Source: Timaviella obliquedivisa GSE-PSE-MK23-08B (GTDB taxonomy: Bacteria > Cyanobacteriota > Cyanobacteriia > Elainellales > Elainellaceae). Taken from it: a stretch of 64,000 bases of DNA. The stretch lies in assembly GCA_019358855.1 (NCBI GenBank), contig JAHHII010000002.1, forward strand, positions 1-64,000, given 5' to 3'. Of this stretch, positions 678 through 57,953 are shown piece by piece. Positions within the stretch are counted from its first letter, which is position 1, and every line of letters begins with the position of its first letter. Made by a program: the position numbers and the translations under genes. The notes below the pieces were generated by a model. That model was not told the DNA's origin and ran no database searches. It worked only from the letters and a program-made list of their open reading frames with translations.

Positions 678-687
678 GTGGTTAAGG
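678..687. repeat. target-site duplication, left copy (GTGGTTAAGG)
   Basis: The ten bases GTGGTTAAGG directly left of the insertion sequence are repeated exactly at 1846-1855 on its right. A duplication of 8-10 bp is the known hallmark of ISAs1-family insertion. The perfect match suggests a fairly recent event. Confidence 0.9.
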
Positions 688-1845
688 GCAGGGCTGATCC
701 TTTAATCAAAGAAAATAGACACTAGAGAAATCCCCTTGATTGGACTCTAAGCTTTATGAGCCTGATTCAACATCTGCAAACCGTTCGAGATTATCGCACT
801 CAACCGGATTACCCGCTCTGGGTGATCTTAGTTTTAATCCTCATGGGCACGATGAGTGGTTGCACCGGATACCGCTCCTTGGCTGACTTTGTCAGTCGCC
901 ATCAAGCCACCTTACTCGAGATCATGGAACTGCCTTATGAGCGACTACCGGGCTTTTCCACCCTGCGGCGGACTATGGTGCGAATTGATTTTGTCTCCTT
1001 TACGGAAGCCTTTAATCGCTGGGCACAAGAACACTGTCCACCCGCCCCTACCGAGCAAGTTGCAGTGGATGGCAAAGGCATTAGAGCCAGCCTGCGTGAT
1101 TATGACCAGTCGTACCAAGACTTTGTCAGCGTCGTCTCCGCCTTCAGTGTCCAGCAAGGCGTGGTGCTGGGTTTAGAGTCAATGCGTAATGGTGAGTGTA
1201 GTGAAATCAAGACCGCTCAAGTGTTGCTAGAGAAACTGCAACTCCAAGGCGTTTGCTTCAGTCTCGATGCCCTCCATACTCAAAAAAAACAACGCAGCAG
1301 ATCACTGCCAGTGGCAATGATTACTTAATTACCGTCAAAGGCAATCAGCAGACTTTGTTTAACCAGTTGCAGACTCAGTTTGAACAACTGCCGCCCCTCA
1401 GTGTTGACCATCAAAGTGAACGGACGCGGGATCGAGTGACGCACCGCAGGGTCAGCGTTTTAGACCAAATTCCAGCCATCGATCCGCAATGGGTCGGCAT
1501 CCAACGGATTGTTCGAGTCGAGCGAACGGGCAGCCGTGCGGGCAAACCCTATGACGAGACGATGTTCTACATCAGTTCTTTGAGGTTAGATGCGGCTGGC
1601 TTCGCCCAACAGATTCGAGCGCACTGGCAGATTGAGAATCGGCTGCATTGGGTCAAAGATGTGGTGTTGAAAGAGGATGAATCGCCCCTCTGTGATGGCA
1701 ATGCCCTGGTCAATTTTGGAATTGTCCGCACTTTCGGAGTCAATCTTTTTCGGCTGAATGGGTTTGATTCCATCACGAAAGGACTACCGTTCTTAGCGCA
1801 TGATGTCAGGAAACTATTTTCCTTCTTTCAATAGATCAGCCCTGC
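688..1845 (+). mobile_element. ISAs1-family insertion sequence, complete, 1158 bp
   Basis: The element is bounded by inverted ends that begin GCAGGGCTGATC (688-699) and end GATCAGCCCTGC (1834-1845), with imperfect pairing further in. Perfect 10-bp duplications flank it. It contains one transposase reading rightwards that is split into two frames. Length, end structure, duplication length and transposase type all fit ISAs1. It has inserted about 75 bp upstream of the rRNA promoter -35 box without breaking the promoter. A short derivative with the same right end lies at 56918-57053. Confidence 0.92.
756..1834 (+). pseudogene. ISAs1-family DDE transposase, frame-split at an A8 tract
   Basis: The first frame (756-1328) carries the N-terminal DDE_Tnp_1-associated domain and the catalytic Asp in AVDGKG (residue 105) and in FSLDALH (residue 171). 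The second frame, read from about 1288 to 1834, carries the rest, including the HWQIENRLHWVKD block with the catalytic Glu. The two join smoothly at eight adenines (1282-1289); a ninth A, or a -1 slip on A_AAA_AAA, restores about 365 residues, the family's normal length. It may be a one-base deletion, a sequencing slip in a homopolymer, or translational frameshifting. ISAs1 elements are not generally known for programmed frameshifting, so inactivation is my default reading. Confidence 0.85.
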
Positions 1846-1855
1846 GTGGTTAAGG
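1846..1855. repeat. target-site duplication, right copy
   Basis: This is the exact repeat of 678-687 (GTGGTTAAGG), directly abutting the right inverted end of the insertion sequence. Confidence 0.9.
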
Positions 1856-36909: not shown

Positions 36910-37145
36910 AATCAGCAGGAGACAAAGAGGCAGAGGCTAACCTTAAAGGATGTCTGAGAAGTATCAAAGATTCTTACACTCGCCCCCCAACCCCCATTTT
37001 GGGGCGACTTCCGAGCCACTCCTTCTTCAAAGTCCCCCAAAATGGGGGATTTAGGAGGCGGATTGGATAGCAAGCTAGACTTCTCAGACAACCTCTTAAA
37101 ACAATTCAATAATCTGAGCGTTCCCCAAACTCAACTCATCGTTTT
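36910..37145. other. intergenic region with palindromic repeat
   Basis: No gene is supported. The main content is a C-rich palindromic repeat at 36981-37060, annotated separately. Confidence 0.6.
36981..37060. repeat. C-rich palindromic interspersed repeat, copy 1
   Basis: CCCCCATTTTGGGG (36991-37004) and CCCCCAAAATGGGGG (37034-37048) are inner palindromes, and the outer arms (CGCCCCCCAACCCCC and GGGGGATTTAGGAGGCG) pair across the whole unit. Repeats of this type are common in filamentous cyanobacteria (recalled). A second copy, split by a MITE, lies at 56892-57107. Confidence 0.8.
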
Positions 37146-56197: not shown

Positions 56198-56863
56198 ATG
56201 TCTTTATTTGGACTGTTTAACAAAAAGTCAGTGCTTCCTACTCCTGAAGAAGCGCTGACTGGACGGTCAGAAGCGATACCTGTTCCGGCTCGACATTTTG
56301 TCAACGGCAATCCGCTCCAGCCGCCCTTTCCTGCTGGCATAGAAACTGCTGTGTTTGGTCTAGGCTGCTTCTGGGGAGCAGAACGTAAGTTCTGGCAGGT
56401 CAAAGGCGTTTACACCACAGCCGTAGGCTATGCTGCCGGAATCACGCCTAACCCAAGCTATCAAGAAGTTTGTTCGGGCATGACAGGACATAATGAAGTT
56501 GTCTTAGTGGCGTTCGATCCCAAAGTGGTGAGCTACGAAGATCTGCTGAAAGTTTTCTGGGAAAGCCACAATCCTACCCAAGGAATGCAGCAGGGGAACG
56601 ATCGAGGAACTCAGTACCGTTCGGGCATCTATACCTATTCTGAGGCTCAGCGCAAAGCAGCAGAGGTTTCTAGAGAAATGTACCAAAAAGCATTGACAGA
56701 AGCAAAATACGGAGAGATTACCACCGAAATCGTAGCCGCTCCCACCTTTTACTACGCTGAAGAATATCACCAGCAATACCTGGCGAAAAACCCCGGTGGT
56801 TACTGTGGCTTAGGCGGCACGAATGTTTCTTGCCCTGTCATGGTCACTCGTTACGAAAGCTAA
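56198..56863 (+). CDS. msrA: peptide-methionine (S)-S-oxide reductase
   Basis: It repairs oxidised methionine in proteins. The active site [15 protein letters not shown] holds the catalytic Cys; GYAAG and the [13 protein letters not shown] tail follow, with the second resolving-type cysteines there. The N-terminal 40 residues ([15 protein letters not shown]) are the usual cyanobacterial extension. Length 221 is normal. It is a single gene just upstream of the repeat region at 56892. Confidence 0.96.
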
Positions 56864-56891
56864 GGGAGTTGCGATTAAATAACGCCCCGAA

Positions 56892-57107
56892 CCGCCCCCT
56901 AAATCCCCCATTCTGGGGCAGGGCTGATCTATTGATTAGAGGAAAACCTCATAACCCGCATTCTTGGGTTTGAGCTTATATGGGTGTCTACCAATACTCA
57001 ACAGAAGGATAAGGAGCAGAGGTATTTTCCTTCTTTCAATAGATCAGCCCTGCCATTCTGGGGGACTTCCGAACCTGTCAAAGTCCCCCAGAATAGGGGA
57101 TCTAGGG
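56892..57107. repeat. C-rich palindromic repeat, copy 2, interrupted
   Basis: The left arm (56892-56917, CCCCTAAATCCCCCATTC core) and right arm (57054-57107, with AAGTCCCCCAGAATAGGGG) together form one palindrome like the one at 36981-37060; both also share GACTTCCGA after the first inner stem. A 136-bp element has been inserted in the left inner stem. Confidence 0.8.
56918..57053. mobile_element. 136-bp MITE related to the ISAs1-family element
   Basis: Terminal inverted repeats begin GCAGGGCTGATCTATTGA on both sides (18 bp perfect), and the last 31 bp (57023-57053) are identical to the right end of the insertion sequence at 688-1845. CATTCTGGG (56909-56917 and 57054-57062) is duplicated at the edges. 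It has no coding capacity; its interior does not match the full-length element that I can see. It is probably moved by that transposase. Confidence 0.88.
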
Positions 57108-57181
57108 ATCTGATAAGTCAATGCATCCCATTGGGGTTTTATTTTCACGCAACTCCCTAACCTAATGCTTGATTTCTAGAA

Positions 57182-57229
57182 GGGTAGGCATCTAGTCTGA
57201 TTCAGTTTAGAAAAAGAAAATGCCTACCC
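57182..57229. terminator. terminator-like hairpin
   Basis: GGGTAGGCAT (57182-57191) pairs with ATGCCTACCC (57220-57229). It lies just past the stop of the leftward RibD-like gene and may end that transcript. Confidence 0.65.
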
Positions 57230-57236
57230 CTTTGAG

Positions 57237-57953
57237 TTATAAGACTTGGTAGTGGAGAAATACCTCTTGGGCGATCGCCTTTACCTCCAGCAATTCTAAT
57301 CGTGGTGCAATTCCCTCTAACACTCCCAGACCTTCTACAGGAGTGGGCGCGTCCTTCCCTCCCAGTAACAACGGACAAACCGTCAACCATAGTTCATCAA
57401 CTCCCCCTACCTCTAAGAGAGAAGCCACCACTTCACCACCACCAGTTACTACCAGCCGTTCCAAGCCCAACTGCCGCAACTGCTGTAATGCGTCTACCCA
57501 ATCTAACCCTGTTGCCCCCTGTTTTCCTTTGATCACTCGCTCAAACTTTTCTATCTGTAGCCGATTTGCTTGGGAGACTGTCGTTAGGAGCCAGCGGGGA
57601 ACAGCTTGCCGAAAAAAGAGGGAATGAGTGTCAAATTGGGCAGATTGAGAACAGACAATATGGACAGGTTGGGGGAATTTCCCTTGGTGTTGGCGGTGCT
57701 GGAGCAGATTGGGGTGAGTGATCCGTAGCGTACTGCCATAGGCACGAAGAGTGCCTGCTCCAAACAGTACGCCATCGGCTTGGGCAATTTGGGTTTCTAG
57801 GTGGCTTTTGTCTTGGGCAGACCCAAACCGAGCAGGCGATCGCCCAGCATCCGCAATTTTGCCATCTGCACTCATCGCCAGGACAACAGTAACGTGGGGG
57901 CGGTGCGTCTTAGAACCGTCAGGCTCTGGGAAAGCAGCTAGATTGGCAGCCAT
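57237..57953 (-). CDS. RibD C-terminal-domain (pyrimidine reductase-like) protein
   Basis: It is a 238-residue protein of the dihydrofolate-reductase-like fold of RibD. It begins with PHVTVVLAMSADGKIADAGRSPARFGS, which matches the RibD substrate loop, then LFGAGTLRAYGSTLRITH and VVTGGGEVVASLLEVGGVDELWLTVCPLLLGG. No deaminase domain is present. It probably reduces a riboflavin precursor or a related compound with NADPH. It is single and leftward. Confidence 0.88.
   Translation of the reverse strand: MAANLAAFPEPDGSKTHRPHVTVVLAMSADGKIADAGRSPARFGSAQDKSHLETQIAQADGVLFGAGTLRAYGSTLRITHPNLLQHRQHQGKFPQPVHIVCSQSAQFDTHSLFFRQAVPRWLLTTVSQANRLQIEKFERVIKGKQGATGLDWVDALQQLRQLGLERLVVTGGGEVVASLLEVGGVDELWLTVCPLLLGGKDAPTPVEGLGVLEGIAPRLELLEVKAIAQEVFLHYQVL

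Follow-up and report, generated by a model that had tools for sequence, protein, structure and literature searches.

The 64,000-nucleotide stretch of DNA analysed here (the window) carries a short non-autonomous element, MITE-A, a MITE that the transposase of an ISAs1-family insertion sequence (IS) resident in the same genome very probably recognises by its ends and moves in trans. The ends, the target duplications, the set of copies, the target common to both elements, and the split transposase gene with its conservation were read from the sequence, and from these we infer the mobilisation in trans, the recoding of the transposase, the mechanism and the effect on rate. A first-pass annotation had described MITE-A as an active non-autonomous partner of the IS, an interpretation that matching ends, duplications of one size class and a common target support, with 'active' taken to mean recently mobile. 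MITE-A itself is an ordinary example of a kind already known; the part likeliest to surprise a specialist is the helper, whose transposase gene is split and which seems to need recoding. The coordinates of all features are collected in Table 1.

Table 1. Features of MITE-A, the surrounding MITE-B and the presumed helper IS, in window coordinates.
Feature	Coordinates	Strand
10-bp target duplication GTGGTTAAGG of IS, left	678..687	
Presumed helper IS of the ISAs1 family, 1158 bp	688..1845	+
Transposase ORF1 (PF13808; N-terminal half of ISAs1 model), 190 aa	756..1328	+
Transposase ORF2, 193 aa, -1 frame, PF01609 and C-terminal half of ISAs1 model	1253..1834	+
A8 run at frame junction, putative recoding site	1282..1289	+
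10-bp target duplication GTGGTTAAGG of IS, right	1846..1855	
TAA, 3-bp duplication of MITE-B, left; also stop codon of upstream ORF 56198-56863	56861..56863	
MITE-B, abundant second MITE, ends GGGAGTTGC/GCAACTCCC, contains MITE-A	56864..57157	
Left part of interrupted target palindrome, CCCCCATTCTGGG(GG)	56905..56917	
Target duplication CATTCTGGG of MITE-A, left copy	56909..56917	
MITE-A, 136-bp non-autonomous element, ISAs1-type ends	56918..57053	+
MITE-A left terminal inverted repeat, 18 bp	56918..56935	+
31 bp identical to IS right end (1815-1845)	57023..57053	+
MITE-A right terminal inverted repeat, 18 bp	57036..57053	-
Target duplication CATTCTGGG of MITE-A, right copy	57054..57062	
Right part of interrupted target palindrome, CATTCTGGGGG	57054..57064	
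TAA, 3-bp duplication of MITE-B, right	57158..57160	

On recheck, the coordinates first given for the 136-bp unit, its 18-bp perfect terminal inverted repeats (TIRs) and the flanking 9-bp duplication CATTCTGGG proved exact. No ORF of at least 40 aa lies wholly inside 56918-57053, in agreement with the description of the element as having no coding capacity, and its last 31 bp do match the right end of the 688-1845 IS at every position. The same 31-bp identity holds for the second resident IS, and the left ends correspond too, at 17 of 18 bases with the second IS and 15 of 18 with the window IS. Uninterrupted left-end identity to MITE-A extends over 17 bases in an IS of the sister species G001, 14 in the second resident IS and 12 in the window IS.

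The interior, which had been judged unrelated to the IS, is so in the main, as no convincing local alignment to the ends or middles of the IS was obtained. Among 15 local alignments against five ISs, the middle of the second IS gave the best score; 1 of 200 shuffles did as well, and with 15 comparisons made we do not count this as homology. The score with the middle of the window IS was reached by 8 of 200. A derivation of the interior from the IS gained no support from these shuffled alignments, and a visual likeness between the 5' leader of the IS and the left half of MITE-A was dropped because the shuffle test did not support it. The interior recurs, diverged, in G001. MITE-A folds as a full-length hairpin (z of -7.9 and -7.4), which is largely predicted by its inverted ends, so that we claim no RNA function for it; a search of 56700-57400 returned no known RNA family up to E = 1.

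A search of the whole host genome (4.91 Mb in 29 contigs), which the first-pass annotation had proposed so as to compare the ends of all copies, recovered four full MITE-As, on four contigs, and two full ISs, and all of their ends match. The MITE-A copies differ from one another at 1-5 of 136 bases, each is flanked by a perfect 9-10-bp target duplication, and the TIR is perfect over 18 bp in three of them, the C5 copy having 16 bp followed by one mismatch. Of the 13 matches to the 12-bp tip in the genome, 12 fall at ends of the four MITE-As and two ISs, and the reversed control has none; chance is excluded as the source of the shared tips. Four copies are nonetheless few for a successful MITE, which weighs against our explanation.

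Across 60 genomes (its own included), the interior matches only its own genome and G001, the sole other genome of the genus in that set, and three further genomes match the end alone, over 31-34 bp; a scan of 388 genomes of the class, scored for two candidates per genome at E <= 1e-8, agrees. The MITE copies of G001, which are partial or lie at contig ends, are 72-87% identical to MITE-A over 60-127 matched bases. MITE-A was found on no plasmid, and its exact 18-base end on no viral contig. We infer that the family predates the split of the two species and that the four copies described here are recent. One of the four sites has an empty counterpart of the kind that the first-pass annotation had proposed to look for in related strains: at the site orthologous to that of the C10 copy, the matched flanks in G001 lie 13 bp apart, and both MITE-A and MITE-B, the second MITE that surrounds it, are absent. 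At the C2 site the G001 contig breaks within the palindrome, and its 16 edge bases form an uninterrupted palindrome; the left flank of the C4 site is mostly unaligned, and the right flank of the C5 site is matched by repeats only. The claim of activity thus stands in the sense of recent movement, on the few differences between copies, the perfect duplications at all four and the empty C10 site.

The presumed helper is assigned to the ISAs1 family by the curated NCBIfam model NF033564, which scores the two transposase halves at 105.5 and 145.1 bits (cut-off 70). The first-pass annotation had called it a complete ISAs1-family element; its ends and family are as described, but its transposase gene is split over two frames. 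A single transposase ORF is usual in the ISAs1 family, and we read the two-ORF layout as a variant within ISAs1 because both halves score above the cut-off of the curated model. The two full ISs of the genome are identical at 1004 of 1158 aligned columns (87%, with 13% differing), and their target duplications of 10 and 9 bp fall within the 8-10 bp range of the family. Shortly downstream of the window IS, at 1910-1949, lies a strong hairpin, CTACATAGGACAAATTCT-TAAG-AGAATTTGTCCTATGTAG.

MITE-A and the IS also have an unusual target in common. The pattern CCCCCATTCTGGGGG, with two mismatches allowed, has 148 + 150 matches in the genome versus 3 + 3 for the control, and these palindromes are frequently arranged as inverted pairs. 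REPs of the REPIN/RAYT type are palindrome doublets linked to a RAYT transposase. In three of the four MITE-As and one of the two ISs, the duplication is CATTCTGGG or CATTTTGGG and occupies one and the same position of the palindrome, the C5 copy being in reverse-complement orientation. The fourth MITE-A (C4) sits in another sequence, CCCC-TCTCCAATGA-GGGG, with its own 10-bp duplication, and the window IS is followed by a G-run without having a C-run before it. In G001, the palindrome or one of its variants directly adjoins all six places that match MITE-A (three MITE and three IS ends). At one IS of that species (L036, on G001:C326), the two flanks are different palindrome variants with no common duplication, as if recombined through IS copies.

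We collected 26 sites, comprising the four MITE-As and 22 insertions of related ISs with a perfect 8-10-bp duplication; 58 distinct IS insertions were scanned for duplications of 8-11 bp, with a shift of up to 2 tolerated in the end positions and rows missing either end skipped, and the 36 without a perfect duplication were left out of the count. That so few of the 58 have a perfect duplication counts against our explanation. A C-run (CCC before the insertion) is present at 17 sites, a G-run (GGG after it) at 19, both at 15 and neither at 5, the background for both runs being 0.18% of random positions and 0.54% of non-ORF positions. The one-sided sites are four with a G-run only (the window IS and three others) and two with a C-run only. 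The five that have neither run include sites whose ends match poorly; where the ends carry at most two mismatches (14 sites), both runs occur at 11 and the G-run at all 14. MITE-A and the IS favour insertion between a C-run and a G-run, as a preference and not a rule, and this target, together with the size class of the duplications, supports the proposed partnership.

The CCCCCATTCTGGGGG palindrome that mostly serves as target belongs to an abundant repeat, which would account for the nesting of this MITE-A copy within MITE-B. Without MITE-A and one copy of its duplication, MITE-B measures 149 bp. Its 27-bp end has 50 matches in the genome with three mismatches allowed (control, 0), and a scan of 39 sources gave 16 rows of paired ends, in which two loci account for two overlapping rows each; 10 of the 16 rows have an identical TAA or TTA on both sides. 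MITEs of the IS1031/IS5 type make a 3-bp duplication of TNA. The second IS copy also sits between MITE-B ends. The C2 copy of MITE-A lies 54 bp from the ATTAAATAAC end of MITE-B and the C10 copy 71 bp from the GTGAAAATAAAACC end, and we read the two as separate insertions because they occupy different arms; around the C5 copy, the same 39-source scan found no MITE-B end pair. Another inverted pair of the CCCCCATTTTGGGG palindrome is present at 36991-37048, where no MITE-B end pair was found, so that the palindrome doublet may be a separate repeat.

A rival reading is that MITE-A spread mainly by recombination, or by co-movement of MITE-B and other palindromic repeats that already carried it, instead of by ISAs1 transposition. 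Three of the four copies do share one position of a palindrome with 298 matches in the genome, and since the C10 locus of G001 lacks both MITEs, a joint arrival there is possible. We nevertheless consider this very unlikely, for the arm of MITE-B that holds the insertion is not the same at C2 and C10, the C4 copy has its own 10-bp duplication in another sequence, and no pair of MITE-B ends was found to bracket the C5 copy. A different question is whether the resident ISs are the right helpers, or bystanders to mobilisation by another ISAs1 relative, for example one like the IS of G001. The identity of the right end to both resident ISs over 31 bp, and the use of the same target spot by one of them, make this unlikely, even though the longest left-end identity is with the G001 IS (17 bases versus 14 and 12), the interior convincingly resembles no resident IS, and MITEs of the family, 72-87% alike over their matched parts, are found in G001.

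We regard mobilisation of MITE-A in trans by this group of ISs as very likely. In the window IS, ORF1 and ORF2 overlap, and a -1 shift at the A8 run that follows a DALHTQ motif would be needed to join them; the second resident IS has the same run, with halves that are otherwise open despite the 13% of differing sites. The two Asp upstream of the junction and the Glu downstream of it are presumably catalytic, and if this assignment is right, ORF1 alone cannot be a transposase. Related elements were gathered from a set of contigs that spans 84,980 species (the best 80 of 98 relatives) and from the 388 class genomes, 28 of which had a match at E <= 1e-40, part of the matches being taken. As ORF2 served as the query, only elements with an ORF2 could be found; an aligned upstream half was required for a piece to be kept (a similar tally set aside 38 C-only pieces), and the 104 rows were reduced to 94 by a half-completeness filter and to 64 clusters at 95% DNA identity.

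The transposase is split in 58 of these 64 clusters: 29 have A7 with the second ORF in +1, 25 have A8/-1, one has A5/+1 and three have A8/+1, a state in which the run includes the preceding base in L126 and L133 and the upstream alignment of L065 stops short. The other six are in frame, with A9 in three and A6, A4 and A8 in one each, the last (L093) being doubtful. A pure A-run of at least 7 is observed in 57 of the 58 split clusters versus 16 expected from codon usage elsewhere in the same genes. Since runs attract indels, this test is in part circular, and the openness of both halves and the wide distribution weigh more. The aligned halves contain no stop in 51 of the 58 clusters; to judge from the stops in the other seven, some copies are dead. 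On a quick tree of 46 near-full-length rows, in which 20 of 43 inner branches are well supported, the state (+1, -1 or in frame) changes at least 13 times. Cyanobacterial records and those assigned to other phyla have the split at a single, common codon position; the A7/A8 split (L038-L147) also occurs under the labels Bacteroidales, Saprospiraceae, Calditrichia and Desulfamplus. The records from other phyla are for the most part metagenome bins, which may be mislabelled. In the genome G224, eight matches score identically and have an open frame of 221 aa, the size of an ORF2, and the one copy sampled (L132) is an A7 split. In another record (L098), ISAs1-type ends face each other 561 bp apart at 2284-2844 with no exact duplication, possibly a larger deletion derivative.

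That the split instead reflects decay, or sequencing error in a homopolymer, with the partner dead and MITE-A stranded, seems to us quite unlikely. A-runs are prone to indels, stops do interrupt an aligned half in seven split clusters, and in-frame relatives exist, in six clusters with one doubtful. Against this, two resident ISs that are 13% apart keep the same A8 and otherwise open halves, most split clusters (51 of 58) are free of stops in their aligned parts, one codon position is affected throughout this wide range of records, and G224 has its uniform set of matches, with an A7 split in the sampled copy. The conserved split suggests conserved recoding, for which we favour RNA polymerase slippage over ribosomal shifting, the latter being possible at A8. 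Plain -1 ribosomal frameshifting was rejected as the sole mechanism, as it fits the A8 elements and not those with A7, whose second ORF is in +1; A7 is short for polymerase slippage, which weighs against slippage in turn.

On the preferred reading, the transposase would bind the common end GCAGGGCTGATC... of the IS and MITE-A and would integrate either element by a 9-10-bp staggered cut, preferably between a C-run and a G-run, the target here being mostly the CCCCCATTCTGGGGG palindrome of the abundant repeat. A minority of transcripts or ribosomes would slip at A8 to yield full-length enzyme, and transposition would be correspondingly low; the excision ends expected of the element are GCAGGGCTG. 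The same ends, the 9-10-bp stagger and the palindrome targets would all follow from MITE-A riding on the ISAs1 enzyme. A broader reading, which in our judgement could equally well prove right or wrong, is that a wide ISAs1 branch (in cyanobacteria and metagenome records labelled Bacteroidota and Desulfamplus) obtains its transposase only through slippage on A7 or A8 directly after DALH(T/C)Q, with run length flipping between out-of-frame states, and that MITEs exploit the rare full enzyme while REP-like palindromes with a C-run and a G-run serve both IS and MITE as safe landing sites.

A clean pair of helper and rider with a known landing site makes MITE mobilisation, REP targeting and recoding testable together. 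The target preference would help to account for the positions of such elements in cyanobacterial genomes, and, to judge from the conserved split, many ISAs1 transposases with the look of frameshifted pseudogenes may be functional.

In the open literature, subscription papers and ISfinder being mostly outside our reach, we found neither a report of an ISAs1 MITE nor one of recoding in an ISAs1 transposase. By description, MITE-A is like other IS-derived MITEs, such as the cyanobacterial Nezha (cited in PMC10969869 and PMC3733652), in being short and non-coding with IS-type inverted ends and target duplications; the text of the review PMC10969869 does not mention ISAs1, and the accessible parts of PMC3542288 and PMC9208149 describe no ISAs1 MITE. 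As for recoding, the portions available of PMC3281130 tie frameshifting to the IS3 and IS5 groups, and those of the review PMC5009743 give it for IS1, IS3, IS5 and IS630. The GeneTack transposases (PMC3711429, in its accessible part) are like those described here in having an A-run at the junction and both +1 and -1 members in one family, and variable shift direction within a family is the GeneTack criterion for transcriptional realignment. The clusters named there are HTH_Tnp_1, IS630, IS1 and Pfam DDE_Tnp_1, the last of which could include ISAs1 elements. Runs of eight As have been suggested to be productive in Nostoc (Baranov 2005, PMC1088944, accessible part), and ISAs1 is mentioned in the text of neither PMC3711429 nor PMC1088944.

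Insertion into extragenic palindromes is likewise shared with the REP-targeting ISs of Tobes and Pareja (2006, PMC1525189), which differ in belonging to the IS3, IS110, IS4, IS256 and IS5 families; the accessible text of that paper does not name ISAs1 and discusses no non-autonomous rider. ISPlr1, an ISAs1-family element of Planktothrix, comes closest in target: as far as the accessible text of PMC4766695 and PMC9366434 goes, within mcy it inserts only in GC-rich REP-like palindromes, and it resembles the IS and MITE-A in its ends (CAGGGCTGTTTCA, of the same type), its 10-bp duplications and its palindrome targets. Unlike MITE-A, it is an autonomous IS, and its transposase gene, for which the single length of 1092 bp is given, is apparently undivided; these texts describe no MITE partner for it. 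Because ISPlr1 was already reported to hit such palindromes, the target preference itself is not new, and the present analysis extends it to a MITE and to further members of the IS group.
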